From: Pukyongia sp. | GTDB taxonomy: Bacteria > Bacteroidota > Bacteroidia > Flavobacteriales > Flavobacteriaceae | Direction: 5' to 3' | DNA: 64,000 nucleotides | NCBI GenBank assembly: GCA_030148705.1 | Contig: JASBSY010000001.1 | Span: 62,001-126,000, forward strand | Program-made: the position numbers and the translations under genes | The notes under the pieces: generated by a model | Seen by the model: the letters and a program-made list of their open reading frames with translations, nothing else | Database searches by the model: none | What the model was told of the DNA's origin: nothing | Part shown: piece after piece, positions 126 through 11,339 of the stretch | Layout: each line of letters starts with the position of its first letter | How positions within the stretch are numbered: the first letter of the stretch is position 1

Positions 126-917
126 ATGATAAAATTCTTTAGAAAAATTAGACAGAATCTACTTGAGGAAGGCAACACCGGAAAGTATTTAAAATATGCG
201 ATTGGCGAAATTATTCTTGTTGTGATTGGAATTTTGATTGCTTTATCAATTAATAATTGGAATGAATCAAGAAAAGATAGGATTTCAGAACAAGTGATTT
301 TGAAACAGCTGAAATCAGAGTTTAATAGTAATCTTAAGCAACTGGATGAAAAAATTGGAATAAGAGACTACATGATGAATTCTGCTATTCAATTATTAGC
401 TACTATCGATAATCCAAGCACCAGAAGTATTGATAGTATAGAAATGCATTTAGCAAAAACAATTCCTTATACAACATTTGACCCAATTCTTAACGATTTA
501 GCAACTTCAGGAAATTTAAGATTGATTAAAAATGATAGTTTAAAGGCTTTACTTTCTGTATGGACTAGTGAAATTGTACAAGTTACTGAAGGAGAACAAA
601 CTTGGGCTAAATACAGAAATGAAATCTACATACCATTTTTAATTAAAAACTATCAGGTTAGAACACTTCGAAATAAGGCAATGAAAACCAATCTGTTATA
701 TACCTTTTTAATTAATCAAGAAAACAGGGAGTCAGAAATAAAAGAGATAGGAAATTCAAAACACTTTTCTGATATTAATTTTCTTCTAGATAATCCTGAT
801 TATGAGGATCATCTCGTAAGATGTATTACAACAAATAGAAATACACAACAACAAGCTTTTATTCTAAGAGACAGAATTATAGGAATATTGGATATTCTAA
901 ATGATGAAATTAATTAA
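126..917 (+). CDS. DUF6090 family membrane-anchored protein, copy 1
   Basis: The 263-residue product opens with a basic amphipathic stretch (MIKFFRKIRQNLL, then GKYLKYAIGE) and one transmembrane helix (about residues 28-44, LVVIGILIALSINNWNE), the signature of the Bacteroidota family DUF6090. The remaining 210 residues are predicted mostly helical and extracytoplasmic, and their function is unknown. It is the first of three paralogs in tandem. Residues 1-46 match copy 2 almost exactly at DNA level, whereas the rest is unrelated at DNA level and only loosely similar in protein (for example SSGKLRIIKN versus TSGNLRLIKN). The start is fixed by the shared MIKFFRKIRQ motif. Family assignment is firm; no role is proposed. 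Confidence 0.85.
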   Translation: MIKFFRKIRQNLLEEGNTGKYLKYAIGEIILVVIGILIALSINNWNESRKDRISEQVILKQLKSEFNSNLKQLDEKIGIRDYMMNSAIQLLATIDNPSTRSIDSIEMHLAKTIPYTTFDPILNDLATSGNLRLIKNDSLKALLSVWTSEIVQVTEGEQTWAKYRNEIYIPFLIKNYQVRTLRNKAMKTNLLYTFLINQENRESEIKEIGNSKHFSDINFLLDNPDYEDHLVRCITTNRNTQQQAFILRDRIIGILDILNDEIN

Positions 918-925
918 CGAAAGCC

Positions 926-998
926 GCCTGCCTGCCGACAGGCAGGCACAACCAGGTATATAAGCCATCAAGACGGTCCATATACAATTCCGTTGTGC
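926..998 (+). repeat. GC palindrome plus attC-like hairpin, copy B
   Basis: The stop codon of copy 1 is followed by ACGAAAGCC and then a perfect palindrome with arms GCCTGCCTG (926-934) and CAGGCAGGC (939-947) around a CCGA loop. A second hairpin has outer arms GCACAAC (946-952) and GTTGTGC (992-998), perfectly complementary, and inner arms GTATAT (956-961) and ATATAC (980-985). From the hairpin through the next start codon the DNA is nearly identical to copy A, at an offset of 897 bp. There is no T-run, so it is not an ordinary terminator. Confidence 0.65.
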
Positions 999-1022
999 TT
1001 CATTATGACAAACTGCTAACCA

Positions 1023-1787
1023 ATGATAAAATTCTTTAGAAAAATTAGACAGAACCTACTTGTGGAAGGCAACACCGGAAAGTATTTAAAATATGCGATT
1101 GGCGAAATTGTTCTTGTTGTAATTGGAATATTAATTGCCCTTCAAATTAATAATTGGAATCAAGCACGAATAGAAAATAATGAAGAACGAATCGCGTTAC
1201 AAAATTTAAAACAAGATTTCGATTTTAATTATGAGACTCTAGATGGGTATATAACCCAAACAGAAAGCATAAAAACAAGTCAATTAATCATTCTTAACCA
1301 TACAGGGAATAAACCAAAACCCAAAACAGATGATGAGTTTAATATTTTACTCAATAGTTCATTAGGCTTGAAGGAATATTTTCCAAGAAACGGTTCTTTG
1401 GATGAGCTATTAAGCTCAGGGAAATTGAGGATTATTAAAAATCAGAGGTTAAGAAAACTTTTATCTTCTTGGCATCCATTATTTGAAAATATAAAAACCC
1501 GCGAAAAGACCGTATTAAGAGATATTTACAAAATAAACGAATATACTTTAACAAAAGCTAGTTGGTTGAATGTAGATGCCGCAATTAGCAGTGACCCGAG
1601 CAAAAATAATTCATACCCAAAATCAGGTTTTGAAATTGACAACAGAATATTATTAAATGAACTAGAATTTGAAAATATGATTGAAAACGCTAGTTATCAA
1701 AATGATTTGCTGATTAATCAGCAAAAAATAGGATTGGAATTAGTTAAGGAAATTAAAGATTTAATAGAAAAAGAAATTAAAGAATAA
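1023..1787 (+). CDS. DUF6090 family membrane-anchored protein, copy 2
   Basis: This 254-residue protein has the same N-terminus as copy 1 (MIKFFRKIRQNLL, GNTGKYLKYAIGE) and one transmembrane helix (about 28-44, LVVIGILIALQINNWNQ), placing it in DUF6090. The extracytoplasmic portion differs from copy 1. It retains the family-like SSGKLRIIKNQRLRKLLSSW segment around residues 137-156. The upstream 75 bp and first 140 bp of the gene nearly duplicate copy 1, suggesting tandem duplication with later divergence or replacement of the 3' part. The stop codon runs directly into the next GC palindrome. Function unknown. Confidence 0.85.
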   Translation: MIKFFRKIRQNLLVEGNTGKYLKYAIGEIVLVVIGILIALQINNWNQARIENNEERIALQNLKQDFDFNYETLDGYITQTESIKTSQLIILNHTGNKPKPKTDDEFNILLNSSLGLKEYFPRNGSLDELLSSGKLRIIKNQRLRKLLSSWHPLFENIKTREKTVLRDIYKINEYTLTKASWLNVDAAISSDPSKNNSYPKSGFEIDNRILLNELEFENMIENASYQNDLLINQQKIGLELVKEIKDLIEKEIKE

Positions 1788-1792
1788 CGAAA

Positions 1793-1873
1793 GCCTGCCC
1801 GCCGGCGAGCAGGCACAACAACGTAACAAGTCTATAGCGGCTGAATTTACTTATTGGAAATTCGAGCCGTTGT
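1793..1873 (+). repeat. GC palindrome plus attC-like hairpin, copy C
   Basis: After the stop codon of copy 2 comes CGAAAGCC and a palindrome with arms GCCTGC (1793-1798) and GCAGGC (1809-1814). The next hairpin has outer arms ACAAC (1815-1819) and GTTGT (1869-1873) and inner arms CGGCTGAATTT and AAATTCGAGCCG, which pair with one bulge. The inner sequence differs from copies A and B while the outer arms are kept, which is the pattern expected of integron attC sites, where structure outlasts sequence. Confidence 0.5.
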
Positions 1874-2124
1874 TTAAAATTCAGTGCTTCCGACAAAAAT
1901 AGTTAAGCTCGCCCTTCCGATTCGCACGCTGGCGCTTCCCAACAACATTTTGCGCTCGCTGGTTAAGAGAACGAAATTTCCTACCTGTTTGGCAGAAAAT
2001 GATCCAATCGATTTTACAATCCATTTTCCCAAATTATAGTATTCTTTTGAAAGTTTCGGACTATCGATCAAGATGTTTAACGCGGCGAGCCAACCGCTAC
2101 TTTTTATATACAAACCCGTTGTAC
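1874..2124 (-). other. possible inverted cassette-like insert with a 79-codon ORF
   Basis: Between hairpin C and a second GTTGTAC box (2118-2124) lies about 250 bp. Read on the minus strand it carries an open frame of 79 codons (1874-2113, MYIKSSGWLAALN...) that stops immediately before an ACAAC box, the same stop-to-box spacing as the plus-strand cassettes. The peptide matches no family I recognise, is uneven in composition and may not be translated. The segment has no counterpart in the other two spacers and separates copy 2 from copy 3. Confidence 0.3.
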
Positions 2125-2184
2125 TTCATTATTCCGAACCCCATATTCAATTTATAATCATACATTTAGAGAAACTAATCCCTA

Positions 2185-2919
2185 ATGATAAAATTCTTCA
2201 GAAAGATTCGTCAAAGATTACTGACCGAGAACAAGTTCAGCAAGTATCTACTTTATGCCATTGGAGAAATTATTCTTGTCGTTATTGGAATTTTGATTGC
2301 GCTTTCAATAAACAATTGGAATAACAACAATGTAAGAGCAAATCAAGAAGTTAGTTTATTGCAAGATATGATTGTAGACTTGAAACAAAACATTAACACA
2401 TCCAATGCTGTTTTAAATATTCATAATGCAACTTTGAAACAAAATATTACACTAAGACAAGTTTTATTAAGCAAAGATACTAAAGGAGATATTCCTCAAA
2501 GACTTATTGGATCGTTGAGTAGTTCGGCAACACCAACATATAGTACATCAACTTATAAAACTATTTCACAAACAGGGTTAAATATTGTTAGTAGTGATAC
2601 CTTGAAAAAGTCAATACTTAGATATTATGAGGTTATTCTTCCATATGTGAATTATAAATCTAATGTGGATCCAAAAAATCAATTCCAAGAACTACTAAAG
2701 CCTTATTTCAATAAATATTTAAAACTAGAATTAAACTCTAATGATTCTATTATTCGCTCTATTAATAGTACACAAGATATGTTTAATGATAATGAATTCT
2801 TGAACGAACTACATACTACTATTGGAAAGAGAAAAAAATTAATTCAACATCTCCATACAGGCATAAGAAATTCGGAGTTCTTAATACAGGAAATAGAACA
2901 ACACTTAACAGAAAAATGA
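2185..2919 (+). CDS. DUF6090 family membrane-anchored protein, copy 3
   Basis: The 244-residue product starts MIKFFRKIRQRLL, followed by KYLLYAIGE and one helix (about 28-44, LVVIGILIALSINNWNN), again DUF6090. Its N-terminal DNA is more diverged from copies 1 and 2 than they are from each other, so it is an older or independently gained copy. The C-terminal part is rich in Asn, Ser and Thr with a predicted helical tail (RNSEFLIQEIEQHL). Only the 20 bp around the start codon (CTAATGATAAAATTCTT) match copies 1 and 2 closely; the rest of the leader differs. Function unknown. Confidence 0.85.
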   Translation: MIKFFRKIRQRLLTENKFSKYLLYAIGEIILVVIGILIALSINNWNNNNVRANQEVSLLQDMIVDLKQNINTSNAVLNIHNATLKQNITLRQVLLSKDTKGDIPQRLIGSLSSSATPTYSTSTYKTISQTGLNIVSSDTLKKSILRYYEVILPYVNYKSNVDPKNQFQELLKPYFNKYLKLELNSNDSIIRSINSTQDMFNDNEFLNELHTTIGKRKKLIQHLHTGIRNSEFLIQEIEQHLTEK

Positions 2920-7470: not shown

Positions 7471-8751
7471 CTATCGCCCCAACTCCCCTATCACGCCCAA
7501 CGCCCTGTCGATCTCCTCTTTAGAATTATAGATATGCACCGAGTGGCGTAGCAGCTCCTCACCTACTGAACGCGGCTGTAAACGCTCCCGTTCCCAGAGA
7601 GTTTTCTGCAGTTCGGGGCCGCTAAGTCCATTAACTGCATAGGTTGTAATTCCGGCAGCAAGCTCTTCGTTGGTTGAAGACGAAATTGTAACATGGGGCA
7701 TCTCCTTAAGACCGTTGCGCAAATAGGCACCCAATTCCTTTATTCGGCTTGTCCAGCGCTTACTGCCAACGCTGTTAAAGAAATCCACGGCCGCCTCATA
7801 ACCTGCGATAAGAGCCGGATTGCCGGTGCCATTCTGCATAAGCCTAAAACCGTGGTCGTCGTGGTTGTCCCAGTTATAGCTGGCAATGGTGGTCCAGATG
7901 TCGCCCACAACATTCTTGTTGATGTAAAGCAGTCCGCTACCCGGCGGTGCCAGCAGCCACTTGTGTAAGCTGCTGTAATAGGCATCGCAGCCAATATCCT
8001 TTACATCCACCTCTATATGACCCACACACTGTGCTCCGTCCAGGATGGTAAAGATGCCGCGCCGGCGTGCTTCCTCACATATTGTTTTTACCGGCATCAC
8101 CGTGCCGTAGACCGAAACGATATGAGGTACTGCGATCACCTTGGTTTTTGGGGTTACCTGGCTGAAAATAGCGTCGACGATTTCCCGGGTATCGTTGGCA
8201 GGAACCGGCATTTCAGCCTGTTTGTAAACACAGCCCTTGCGTTTGGCAAGGGTTTGCCAGGCGCCGAATCCACCCCCGTGTTCCTGGTTGGTATTTAGTA
8301 ACTCATCTCCCGCTTTGAGATTGAGGCCCATCCCAACATAATTCATTCCAAAGGTTGCGTTTTGCGTAAGTGAGATTTCTTTATAATCACAATTGATGAG
8401 CTTCCCCAGTTTTTCACGTAATTCCACATATGGAAAATAACCGCTGAGCAGCTCCGGGCCGGAGCCGTCCTTATAGTCGATGGTGGCTGCTTCCTTATTG
8501 TAATGCAGCATGTGATTTATCATGGTATCAAGCACGTATCCCGGGGTTGGGCCCATGGTGCCGTTGTTAAAATAGGTCTGCCCCTCCTTGAGGATGAATT
8601 GCTTTCGGATCATGCGCCAATAGGCTTCGGGGTCTGAAGGAGGGGTTATTAGAGGTTTCAGGGACCATTCCCTACTTTTGGTAAAAGATAAGAATGGTGT
8701 CCCCACTGCAGCCAGGGCGACAGATCTTAGAAAATCTCGGCGTTGGGTCAT
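7471..8751 (-). CDS. class V aminotransferase-fold PLP enzyme, Tat-exported
   Basis: This 426-residue protein starts with a twin-arginine signal (MTQRRDFLRSVALAAVGTPFLSF), so it is probably folded and loaded with cofactor in the cytoplasm before export. The body is a fold-type I, class V aminotransferase like cysteine desulfurases and isopenicillin N epimerase. The PLP-binding lysine is K264 in SLHKWLLAPPGSG, and AVPHIVSVYGTVMPV and LDGAQCVGH precede it. No cysteine-desulfurase partner (SufE, SufBCD) is nearby, so an epimerase or lyase role is as likely as desulfuration. The last 81 bp are duplicated in the remnant at 6490-6624. Confidence 0.85.
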   Translation of the reverse strand: MTQRRDFLRSVALAAVGTPFLSFTKSREWSLKPLITPPSDPEAYWRMIRKQFILKEGQTYFNNGTMGPTPGYVLDTMINHMLHYNKEAATIDYKDGSGPELLSGYFPYVELREKLGKLINCDYKEISLTQNATFGMNYVGMGLNLKAGDELLNTNQEHGGGFGAWQTLAKRKGCVYKQAEMPVPANDTREIVDAIFSQVTPKTKVIAVPHIVSVYGTVMPVKTICEEARRRGIFTILDGAQCVGHIEVDVKDIGCDAYYSSLHKWLLAPPGSGLLYINKNVVGDIWTTIASYNWDNHDDHGFRLMQNGTGNPALIAGYEAAVDFFNSVGSKRWTSRIKELGAYLRNGLKEMPHVTISSSTNEELAAGITTYAVNGLSGPELQKTLWERERLQPRSVGEELLRHSVHIYNSKEEIDRALGVIGELGR

Positions 8752-8900
8752 GGAAAAGACGTTTATGGTTGGAAATACCTAAGAAAGTTAAGTAATATTT
8801 TTTTTAACTTCGGACAACCATATATAACCCTCTAAAAAATGAGTGTTAAACTATTCTAAAATCGACTCCGTCTAAACTTCTTTTTTGTATATTTATATCA

Positions 8901-8981
8901 TCATATCGGGGTGCTTAAGTCCTAACAGCTGAGAATATACCCGTTGAACTTCGTCGGATAATACCAACTGAAGGAATATGA
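8901..8981 (+). promoter_or_regulatory. TPP riboswitch (THI element), no thi gene downstream
   Basis: The core matches the thiamine pyrophosphate riboswitch closely: GGGGTGC (8908-8914), GCTGAGA (8928-8934), ACCCGTTGAAC (8939-8949), GGATAATACC (8956-8965) and AAGGAA (8971-8976). The closing P1 stem TCATAT (8901-8906) and ATATGA (8976-8981) pairs perfectly. A TATATTTA element (8888-8895), close to the Bacteroidota -7 box TAnnTTTG, lies just upstream. In known cases this RNA shuts off thiamine synthesis or uptake genes. Here the next gene is 660 bp away and is an FAD/NAD(P)-binding protein, beyond a terminator and repeats. Confidence 0.93.
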
Positions 8982-8984
8982 AAG

Positions 8985-9026
8985 CAAAGGGAATTAAGAT
9001 TTTGTCTTATTCCCTTTGTTGTTTTT
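8985..9026 (+). terminator. intrinsic terminator after the TPP riboswitch
   Basis: Arms CAAAGGGAA (8985-8993) and TTCCCTTTG (9010-9018) pair perfectly and are extended inside by TAAG/CTTA across a single bulged T. A T-rich run follows (TTGTTTTT). It begins four bases after P1, so it could be the riboswitch expression platform or a constitutive end of a short RNA of about 125 nt. Confidence 0.85.
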
Positions 9027-9041
9027 AAACCGCTCCTAGTC

Positions 9042-9556
9042 GCTTCTCGATACTAATTTGAAGTAGCTCGCGCACTTCAAATTCACTCGAAGTGACAATT
9101 TCAAACATCACTCTTCACCACTCACGATTCACTACTCACCACTCTTTATTCCCTACTCACTATTCACTCTTAACGCTTCACCAATCACGGCTTCCCCTGT
9201 CCGCCGAAGCACATGCGAAGGCGGAGGCTTTCGACTTCAAATTCACTCGCTTCTCGATACTAATTTGAAGTAGCTCCCGCACTTCAAATTCACTCGAAGT
9301 GACCGCATTCCAACATCACCCTTCACGTTTCACCATTCACTTTTCACTCCTCACCACTCACTATTCACTCTTCAAACCGGTAATTTCGATACACTTCCTC
9401 TTTGCGGAAGCACTCAATCACCTGGTTTAAAACTAACAATTCACAACTCACGCTTCACTATTCACTCGAAGTGACAGCTTTCCAACATCACTCTTCACGG
9501 TTCACCATTCACTTTTCACACCTCACCACTCACTATTCACTATTCACTCTTCACTA
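9042..9556 (+). repeat. repeat cluster: palindromic units and TTCAC-rich tracts
   Basis: A 55-bp unit occurs at 9042-9096 and 9249-9303 with one difference, and its last 15 bases recur at 9461-9475. Within it AATTTGAAG/CTTCAAATT and TCACT/AGTGA form hairpins. Each copy is followed by 60-100 bp of irregular TTCAC/CTCAC-type short repeats (such as CACTCACTATTCACT). A further hairpin TCCGCC/GGCGGA lies near 9199-9225. No open frame of note crosses the region. With the riboswitch and terminator, this accounts for the 890-bp gap between genes. Confidence 0.8.
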
Positions 9557-9638
9557 CTAACCCCCAGGTTAAACATCTCTTAAACAATTTTTAGCTAGAA
9601 AGCATACTCCTATCTTTACTACTTAACAAAAAACCATC

Positions 9639-11339
9639 TTGTATACAATCGCCATCATAGGCCTGGGGCCGCGCGGACTCCATGCACTGGAACAACTGCT
9701 GTTGAGGCTGGAAAAAAATCATATCCGGGCAAAAATTCTGCTTTTCGACCCAACTCCATGGCCGGGCGCCGGACCGGTATGGTCGCCCGAACAACCGGAT
9801 ACCAACTGGATAAACAGCCCGGAACAGTCCCTTACCGAACTGGCAACACGCCCGGCTCTGAATTTCGACCAGATCGAAATCCCGGCCTTCCCCTCCTACC
9901 TCGAGCAAGTCGATGTCGATAACAAAACCTATATTTTTCCGCCACGAAACAAGATTGGCCTATACCTGCAGCAACGCTTCAATTCCATAATCGACGCCTT
10001 ACAACATTCCCCACTATTGGAGTACGTTCAAGCCGCTATAATCGATATCAAACCGCTGCAGTCAGAGTTACAATTAATCAGTAAAGCACAAGACACCTAT
10101 ACGGCAAACGAAGCGCTGCTCTGTGTTGGGCACCAACCAACCAAACTAAGTGAAGAGTTACAAAATTGGAAGGAGCTGGTGGCATCCAACAACAGCCTAC
10201 ACCTCTTTACAAACCCTTACCCTATCTCACAGTTCGAAAAACTTAAAACAACGGAGAACCACCGTATCGGGATCCGGGGCTTCGGTCTGGCAATGCTGGA
10301 TGTGATCCGGGCACTGAGTCTTAACCTGGCGGGAGAATTCAGGCAAACCGACACCAAGACCCTTGCTTGTGAATTCGTTAAAACTTCAAACACTGGGTTA
10401 AGGATCTATACCTATGCCCTTGATAGCAACCCACCTGCTCCTAAACCCCTAAATAAAAGTATAGATGATCGCTTTGCTCCCACTTCAGAAGAAATGCGAC
10501 AGCTAAGCAACACCCTTGTAACAGCCCCAGCATCTAACAATGCTAAACGTTCCATAGATCTTGTCGTGAATCCGGTAATCACCATCTGCTGCAGGGTATT
10601 TAGTGAGATGCAAGCCAAAGACCGACCCTTGGAAGAGGTTAAAACGGTGTTGGAACATTGGACAACCGACGAAAACTTTAAACACCCGTTGATCCTGGAC
10701 ACTTCCCTGGCCGTTACTGAACAGATCGAGGCATTTATTGAAATGGCCGGTGGAAACCGGCCGAGCAGCCTGGATTACTGCTTCGGACAAGTCTGGCGCC
10801 ATTGCTGGCCCCGTTTGAGTAAACTTCTATCACATTCCGGCCTGGATGGTGACACTATGTATAAGCTTATTAAATTCGATGAGCGGATAAAGCGGTATTC
10901 TTTCGGACCTCCTGTTGAAAGCATGCAGCAAGTACTTGCCCTGGTTGACGCAGGTATTCTGAATCTCGATTATCTCGATGACCCTGAACTTGAGCTTAAC
11001 AAACAAGGCTGGAAAATAAGCAAGAATGGAGATTCTGTGGTTGTCGATACACTCATTAATTCAGTATTGGATGAACCTGTTCTTCTTGAAGTAGTCTCCC
11101 CTTTATTCAAAAACCTGCGCAAACGAAATCTGGTTTTACCGGTGCATCCCGAACTGGGAGCGAAAACAAATCACAACACGGGACTGGTTAATATATATCC
11201 TGCGAACAGCACGACCACGATCGCATTAACTGGGAGTATGGCTAAAGGAAGTGAAATGGGCGTGGATTCTATTTCCCAGGCCTTTGGGCAAATAATTGAG
11301 GTTTGGGCCGGGGCTGTAGCAAGGCGAGCACAAAATTGA
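9639..11339 (+). CDS. FAD/NAD(P)-binding protein
   Basis: The 566-residue protein begins YTIAIIGLGPRGLHALEQLL, a Rossmann dinucleotide-binding motif of the GxGPRG type typical of the NAD_binding_9 family (PF13454). INSPEQSLTELATRP and FPPRNKIGLYLQQRF follow, also typical. The C-terminal part has TGLVNIYPANSTTTIALTGSM, where family members read the second nucleotide site. The start is TTG at 9639; no upstream ATG is in frame, and TATCTTTA at 9611-9618 resembles a -7 box. Family members are poorly characterised flavin-dependent oxidoreductases, so no substrate can be given. Its GC content is higher than the upstream repeat tract. Confidence 0.85.
   Translation: MYTIAIIGLGPRGLHALEQLLLRLEKNHIRAKILLFDPTPWPGAGPVWSPEQPDTNWINSPEQSLTELATRPALNFDQIEIPAFPSYLEQVDVDNKTYIFPPRNKIGLYLQQRFNSIIDALQHSPLLEYVQAAIIDIKPLQSELQLISKAQDTYTANEALLCVGHQPTKLSEELQNWKELVASNNSLHLFTNPYPISQFEKLKTTENHRIGIRGFGLAMLDVIRALSLNLAGEFRQTDTKTLACEFVKTSNTGLRIYTYALDSNPPAPKPLNKSIDDRFAPTSEEMRQLSNTLVTAPASNNAKRSIDLVVNPVITICCRVFSEMQAKDRPLEEVKTVLEHWTTDENFKHPLILDTSLAVTEQIEAFIEMAGGNRPSSLDYCFGQVWRHCWPRLSKLLSHSGLDGDTMYKLIKFDERIKRYSFGPPVESMQQVLALVDAGILNLDYLDDPELELNKQGWKISKNGDSVVVDTLINSVLDEPVLLEVVSPLFKNLRKRNLVLPVHPELGAKTNHNTGLVNIYPANSTTTIALTGSMAKGSEMGVDSISQAFGQIIEVWAGAVARRAQN

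Follow-up and report, generated by a model that had tools for sequence, protein, structure and literature searches.

Within the 64,000-nucleotide stretch of Pukyongia DNA analysed here (the window), cmscan returned the TPP riboswitch family RF00059 as the sole Rfam match at gathering level, located at 8897-8992 on the plus strand with 56.2 bits and an E value of 2.5e-8, the gathering cut-off being 54.3 bits. The aptamer lies between a divergent aminotransferase gene and a flavoprotein gene, and the features of this locus are as follows.

7471-8751, minus strand: divergent upstream gene encoding a class-V aminotransferase fold (PF00266; ORF call and Pfam)
8845-8850, plus strand: GTTAAA upstream element (from sequence; in 43 of 59 elements)
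8888-8895, plus strand: putative -7-type promoter box TATATTTA (from sequence; TAnnTTTA in 49 of 59 elements)
8897-8992, plus strand: TPP aptamer, RF00059 (cmscan, 56.2 versus 54.3 bits)
8902-8906, plus strand: 5' strand of P1, perfect 5-bp pairing with 8976-8980
8930-8934, plus strand: J3/2 UGAGA, the pyrimidine-binding T-loop (mean column identity 0.96 in 41 clustered elements)
8949-8973, plus strand: P4-P5 arm (cmscan alignment)
8968-8969, plus strand: J5/4, here CU, at the positions of thiM C77-G78 (cmscan alignment)
8976-8980, plus strand: 3' strand of P1 (sequence and covariation)
8985-8993, plus strand: lower stem of the terminator hairpin, 5' arm CAAAGGGAA (identity 0.96 in 41 clustered elements; compensatory changes)
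9010-9018, plus strand: lower stem of the terminator hairpin, 3' arm TTCCCTTTG (identity 0.97 in 41 clustered elements)
9019-9027, plus strand: T-rich tract, expected 3' end of the RNA (from sequence; the match to the R1 model described below stops at 9027)
9040-9555, no strand: direct repeats of three families, separating the RNA from the flavoprotein gene
9568-9618, plus strand: promoter-like GTTAAA (9568-9573) and TATCTTTA (9611-9618) before the flavoprotein gene (putative, from sequence)
9639-11339, plus strand: FAD/NAD(P)-binding protein (PF13454, NAD_binding_9), judged not to be the target (ORF call and Pfam)

The -7-type box follows the Bacteroidota promoter consensus, and the promoter is putative; since the box ends 6 nt ahead of P1, the RNA is predicted to start almost at the aptamer. 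The hairpin, CAAAGGGAATTAAGA...TCTTATTCCCTTTG with one bulged T, begins 4 nt past P1 and is followed by TTGTTTTT. Folding of the 131-nt RNA gave -33.3 kcal/mol with a z score of -2.74, and 1 of 200 shuffles was as low. A simple terminator scan and a sigma-70 promoter scan returned 0 sites each; the former may have missed the hairpin because of its bulge, and the latter the promoter because it is of the Bacteroidota type. A small ORF within the RNA, with its ATG in the 3' strand of P1, was set aside because by eye it is not kept in homologs, evident by an adjacent stop in one (L031) and the lack of the ATG in another (L044).

These results bear out a preliminary description of the locus, which had reported a TPP aptamer with a perfect P1 and a terminator four bases later: the covariance-model score is above gathering, 8902-8906 pairs with 8976-8980, and the hairpin starts at 8985. 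It had also placed the next plus-strand gene 610 nt past the terminator, beyond repeats, and noted the absence of thiamine genes. Indeed, no same-strand ORF of at least 60 aa occurs for 610 nt after the terminator, the first being the PF13454 protein at 9639, and no thiamine gene was recognised by Pfam among the 8 neighbouring proteins. The check for thiC elsewhere, which the description had proposed, found none in the window's genome or in 6 genus mates.

The tract at 9040-9555 is of low complexity, with direct repeats of the TTCACT/CACTCAC type and a 57-nt repeat whose copies are 98% identical. Elsewhere in the window (126-2919), three tandem paralogs start with MIKFFRKIRQ..LL, the first of them a DUF6090 match; a further copy lies just upstream in L022, and similar proteins are found in the genus mate G001 (L027). 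The host genome of 2.9 Mb contains two TPP elements, that of the window and a weaker one (40.4 bits) that precedes a TonB-receptor plug-domain protein. Four of the six genus mates have one TPP match each, which by its position beside the same neighbours is of the type of the 40.4-bit element, and two have none. The window's element was not found among the TPP matches of these six genus mates and is present in one of the seven genomes of the genus, suggesting that it is dispensable, often lost, or transferred. Homologs of the divergent aminotransferase, at 84-85% identity, occur in four of the six genus mates, and upstream of this gene no synteny with the window was seen in G001, G005 and G006, where other genes are found; the comparison was thus uninformative on the ancestral gene order.

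A box-aptamer-hairpin unit in Flavobacteriaceae

When nucleotides 8880-9035 (156 nt) were used as a DNA query against 299 family genomes, 18 long matches (L031-L048) were obtained at 70-87% identity from 14 other genera, together with short low-scoring matches. In 11 of the 18 long alignments the match spans the -7 box through the hairpin, and in the homologous units the box is closely followed by an aptamer, which a short linker joins to the hairpin stem. Alignment of 19 sequences supported the proposed fold over 36 base pairs, 17 of which changed on both sides; 90.6% of cells were paired, a measure favoured by the fact that the tested structure was derived from the Rfam fold and from the window's element, itself one of the aligned sequences. 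Two-sided changes affect 3 of the 5 pairs of P1 and 7 of the 14 pairs of the terminator helix. None of 500 shuffles was as high on any of five measures, and slid controls reached at most 8 two-sided pairs. RNAalifold, given no structure, recovered P2, P3, P5 and the hairpin, and did not recover P1 or P4.

A covariance model of the whole unit, R1, was then applied to 397 family genomes under stricter filtering, at which weak matches may be lost. Some match at an E value of 1e-4 or below was obtained in 314 genomes, and 35 matches of at least 73.7 bits were obtained in 33 genomes belonging to 24 of 237 genera. We also fetched 20 lower scorers (49.5-88 bits): L151-L155 and L168 have the hairpin stem and share no downstream gene, L157 is a doubtful variant, and the other 13 have a same-strand ORF downstream; L168 (61.1 bits) and L157 lie outside the 35 matches. 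Across 296 genomes of the order, a set that includes the family itself, no match from outside the family scored above 69.3 bits (L171).

A pattern scan of named genomes, with a pattern built from the elements, gave at least 32 loci. These come from Aequorivita (A. antarctica, A. aurantiaca, A. capsosiphonis, A. todarodis, A. aquimaris, A. vitellina, A. lipolytica, A. vladivostokensis and several unnamed members), Gelidibacter, Winogradskyella, Altibacter, Ulvibacter antarcticus, Luteirhabdus pelagi, Hanstruepera ponticola, Formosa maritima and other MAGs. R1 matched 31 of the 32, the exception being L150, labelled Lokiarchaeota; L138 is an element that is cut off and scores 63.4 bits. Two stand-alone copies per genome were observed in G214 and G271, about 3 kb apart (L125, 933 and 3888; L129, 880 and 3862). 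Carriage of the element showed no clear association with thiC, which was found in 3 of 33 carriers and in 7 of 33 non-carriers, the latter taken from the top of the list and not drawn at random.

Upstream of the aptamers, 49 of 59 elements have TAnnTTTA where the box is expected; the corresponding fraction is 0.02 for 528 other upstream windows and 0.12 for shuffles of the same bases. A looser box, TAnnTT[TAC], fits 57 of 59 elements, yet also 0.61 of shuffles of the same AT-rich 28 nt, and TAnnTTTA was used for this reason. Exact GTTAAA occurs 30-75 nt upstream in 43 of 59 elements, compared to 4 of 175 control windows further up. Both motifs are candidate parts of a promoter.

Conservation was measured as mean column identity in 41 elements clustered at 90% identity. 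The base of P3 was highest (1.00), and it alone exceeded the lower hairpin arms, which at 0.96 and 0.97 are as conserved as J3/2 (0.96); the values for the arms are to be read with the fact that R1 and the pattern, both of which include the stem, helped to select these elements. Lower identities were seen in L5 (0.94), P2 (0.92), P4 (0.82), P1 (0.81), P5 (0.73), the upper hairpin stem (0.63) and J5/4 (0.52). Since a terminator works by pairing and needs no particular sequence, conservation of the lower stem suggests an additional role for the hairpin. A search of 395 family genomes for the exact hairpin pattern, in which variant GAG/CTC stems do not count, gave 23 places, and 21 of these are stand-alone elements; the reversed pattern gave one. 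At the two other places (G011 and G257), GCTGA[GA]A was absent within 160 nt upstream. The one in G257 (C36:29964-29997; L182/L200) is the same CAAAGGGAAT..ATTCCCTTTG hairpin without the aptamer motif, flanked by A and T tracts, and is apparently a bidirectional terminator.

A stem conserved as much as the ligand loop could mean that selection acts at the level of DNA or of termination, the hairpin serving as a terminator for the convergent gene or as a palindromic binding site and the aptamer being a passenger. The many elements that abut the end of a convergent gene (34 of 58) and the similar aptamer-free hairpin in G257 fit this explanation. We nevertheless regard it as unlikely, for J3/2, P2, the P3 base and L5 are near-invariant, the helices covary, and the exact hairpin almost always comes with an aptamer (21 of 23 places).

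Downstream genes and termination

TPP riboswitches are known as cis-regulators, of which a conserved target on the same strand is expected. Downstream genes were collected for 59 elements, i.e., the 54 left after nine same-sequence loci (including L138) were dropped, plus L151-L155. The downstream gene was taken as the nearest ORF of at least 100 aa, called mechanically in a manner that misses small genes. Such an ORF was found for 58 of the 59 elements, on the opposite strand in 43 and on the same strand in 15, where it lies at 81-784 nt; of the 43, 34 end within 60 nt of the end of the match. For L109, entered as same-strand at 634 nt, a 66-aa ORF on the opposite strand lies closer (L042).

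The downstream proteins formed 36 clusters without mutual BLAST similarity. According to Pfam, run on one protein per cluster, the largest (12 elements) is release factor RF-1/PCRF, and other clusters sampled comprise HisIE domains, Asp/Glu racemase, chloride channel, universal stress protein, fatty acid hydroxylase, acetyltransferase, NAPRTase and a tRNA-binding domain, while L104 gave no family. No thiamine gene was seen among the ten clusters submitted, one protein each. The elements thus occupy unrelated intergenic spaces, mostly against the 3' end of an opposite-strand gene, and sequence comparison of the relatives, a check that the preliminary description had suggested, reveals no cis target shared across the family and no conserved same-strand gene.

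As a control, we treated in the same way, with an ORF limit of 70 aa, the 29 highest-scoring ordinary TPP loci (L060-L088), 11 of which belong to other families of the order; the nearest ORF was on the same strand in 26. At L061 and L062 a ThiC-like ORF is located about 288 nt downstream, with a 72-aa antisense ORF in between. The genes that follow ordinary TPP elements in relatives encode ThiC, ThiD, ThiM, transporters or TonB receptors; at nine of the 29 loci Pfam identified the downstream protein, giving ThiC, phosphomethylpyrimidine kinase, hydroxyethylthiazole kinase, an NMN-type transporter (2) and TonB plug (4). An exception in the control set is L078 (G037, 1464-1588, minus strand), a 65.1-bit TPP element with an opposite-strand ORF downstream; its hairpin is strong but different (GAGCTTCATTTCC...), and L078 is possibly an independent stand-alone TPP RNA.

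The flavoprotein gene was considered as a target and rejected. Its homologs occur in the host's own genome and in 7 others among 120 family genomes, and at the 8 loci in these 7 genomes (L008-L015) no TPP match lies alongside. G001, the sole one of the six genus mates with a homolog (39% identical), has its only TPP match elsewhere. Homologs on 57 plasmid records and weak NCBIfam matches were uninformative on this question. The suggestion that the element controls the flavoprotein at a distance is therefore not supported, given also that this gene has a promoter-like sequence of its own and that the gene facing related RNAs is mostly on the opposite strand.

To describe termination, we predicted hairpin strength and alternative pairing. 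The hairpin has a median of -18.4 kcal/mol over 51 stand-alone elements, a set in which the wrong hairpin was picked in L140 and L116; two further elements, L121 and L118, gave none. In transcripts truncated before the 3' arm, pairing of the 5' arm with the aptamer had a median of 0.09 in these 51 elements and 0.42 in 19 ordinary elements, a weak comparison in that a hairpin was obtained for 19 of 34 ordinary elements and many of these are doubtful. For the window's own RNA the mean pairing probability was 0.53, so that attenuation is conceivable for this element. The strong hairpin and the rarity of arm-aptamer pairing across the family argue, in these models, for constitutive termination.

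The same data bear on a cis attenuator, by which TPP would set termination at 9027 versus read-through into the flavoprotein gene or, in relatives, antisense into the convergent gene. In the genus mate G003, a hairpin and T run lie between an ordinary TPP element and its downstream gene, and this and the pairing of 0.53 in the window would accord with an attenuator. We hold this explanation to be improbable, however, because the downstream genes fall into 36 unrelated clusters with 43 of 58 on the opposite strand, the hairpin is strong and its alternative pairing low over the family (medians of -18.4 kcal/mol and 0.09), and the flavoprotein gene has its own promoter-like sequence and no TPP match beside it at 8 loci in 7 other genomes. 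Finally, the proposal that the element is a relic of a thiamine operon or transporter gene deleted at the repeats, for which the lack of thiC in the genome and the repeats after the terminator could be invoked, is very hard to sustain, as the unit recurs with a covarying terminator in 24 genera (33 of 397 family genomes) before unrelated, mostly opposite-strand genes, and a relic should not retain a hairpin stem that is 96-97% identical.

Ligand pocket and proposed function

In TPP riboswitches, the aminopyrimidine of the ligand sits between G42 and A43 and bonds with G40 and G19, and the pyrophosphate bonds with C77 and G78 together with two Mg ions, as given in excerpts of PMC7824784; J3/2 acts as the pyrimidine-binding loop (PMC3764141, PMC7824784, in part), and C77 and G78 of J5/4 are highly conserved, according to an extract of PMC3764141. 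J3/2 (U39-A43) is kept in the window as TGAGA. At the C77/G78 positions of J5/4 the window has CU, and CG was found in 3 of 53 parsed stand-alone elements. In a model-based alignment, J5/4 is CG in 23 of 24 biosynthesis or transport cis elements versus 10 of 23 TonB-linked ones, with labels mostly read from the downstream protein (ten Pfam-checked) and one letter only visible in three of the deviating TonB-linked rows. The idea that the J5/4 change is special to the stand-alone class was dropped, since 13 of 23 TonB-linked cis elements deviate likewise. Because the relaxation also occurs in these cis elements, the lack of CG does not exclude TPP binding, which is plausible from the sequence; a changed ligand is possible. 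Among TonB-linked elements, L159, L160, L165, L167, L086 and L088 have CA instead of CG, i.e., a relaxed pyrophosphate contact.

Compared to RF00059, the stand-alone elements have the same aptamer architecture, with J3/2 UGAGA and L5 UAAU, and all 20 loci tested (of 29) match that family at 42-65 bits, 7 of them above gathering. They differ in the absence of a shared downstream gene, in a J5/4 that is mostly CU or CA and not CG, and in the fixed hairpin attached to the aptamer.

We consider it likely that the element is a dedicated small non-coding RNA without a shared cis target, most probably acting in trans and probably responsive to TPP. The preliminary description had offered a short TPP-responsive RNA among its explanations; of this, the sequence comparison backs the short stand-alone RNA, while its expression and its response to the ligand are predicted. 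Transcription would start at its own promoter and stop at its own terminator hairpin, giving an RNA of some 120-140 nt, or about 125 nt for the window's element. The TPP-class aptamer would be the sensor, and the hairpin with the conserved lower stem, joined to it by a short linker, would be both terminator and output module. With the TPP level the aptamer would fold or unfold, TPP stabilising it, and its state could make the RNA more or less stable or change how readily a partner protein or an mRNA reaches the hairpin or strands of the aptamer. Vitamin B1 status would thereby be coupled to distant genes. Several observations count against this proposal: the same-strand ORFs at 15 of 58 elements, the pairing of 0.53 in the window's RNA, the absence of the element from the TPP matches of six genus mates, the missing association with thiC, the failure of RNAalifold to recover P1 and P4, and a J5/4 that in most elements lacks the G contacting the pyrophosphate.

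Among the matches listed in a search of mainly open-access literature, judged by titles and abstract openings, none concerned a stand-alone TPP RNA in Flavobacteriaceae. Bacteroides thetaiotaomicron is of the same phylum as the window's host. It has TPP aptamers too, and the three riboswitches named in PMC7366714 are 5'-UTR elements of thiamine or transport genes. The HMP-PP (thiS) riboswitch likewise joins a thiamine-pathway sensor to a terminator, but its aptamer is embedded in the terminator stem (PMC6478431), whereas in the stand-alone elements the hairpin begins after a complete TPP-type aptamer.

The nearest precedents are SreA and EutX/Rli55. SreA and SreB, Listeria SAM riboswitches acting in trans on prfA, are short RNAs of aptamer plus terminator with a proposed trans action (parts of PMC8079631 and PMC9495176), and in SreA a riboswitch, once terminated, is able to pair with an mRNA (PMC8079631). 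This anatomy, a short terminated RNA with an aptamer, is predicted here from sequence. SreA, however, is the terminated leader of an operon that it also controls in cis, whereas the stand-alone TPP RNA has no shared operon or other shared downstream gene and belongs to a different ligand class. EutX/Rli55 is a free-standing non-coding RNA with a vitamin (B12) aptamer and an output module, not tied to the orientation of a gene, and through it the aptamer in a free RNA controls a distant regulator protein (PMC5821096 and PMC8079631, both in excerpt). Its output, an EutV/ANTAR site, lies beyond a ligand-controlled terminator, while in the TPP RNA only the terminator hairpin follows the aptamer.

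A further reading, which we put forward tentatively and hold to be doubtful, is that the elements form a new class of free-standing vitamin-B1-sensing RNA in Flavobacteriaceae, in which a relaxed pyrophosphate pocket, perhaps accepting thiamine or thiamine monophosphate as well, is combined with a fixed hairpin recognised by a protein or an mRNA to govern a thiamine regulon in trans. Should the element be a dedicated small RNA, as we propose, it would mean that a riboswitch can turn into one and would point to thiamine-responsive targets in these bacteria; it would also explain orphan TPP matches that can be mistaken for leaders of unrelated genes.
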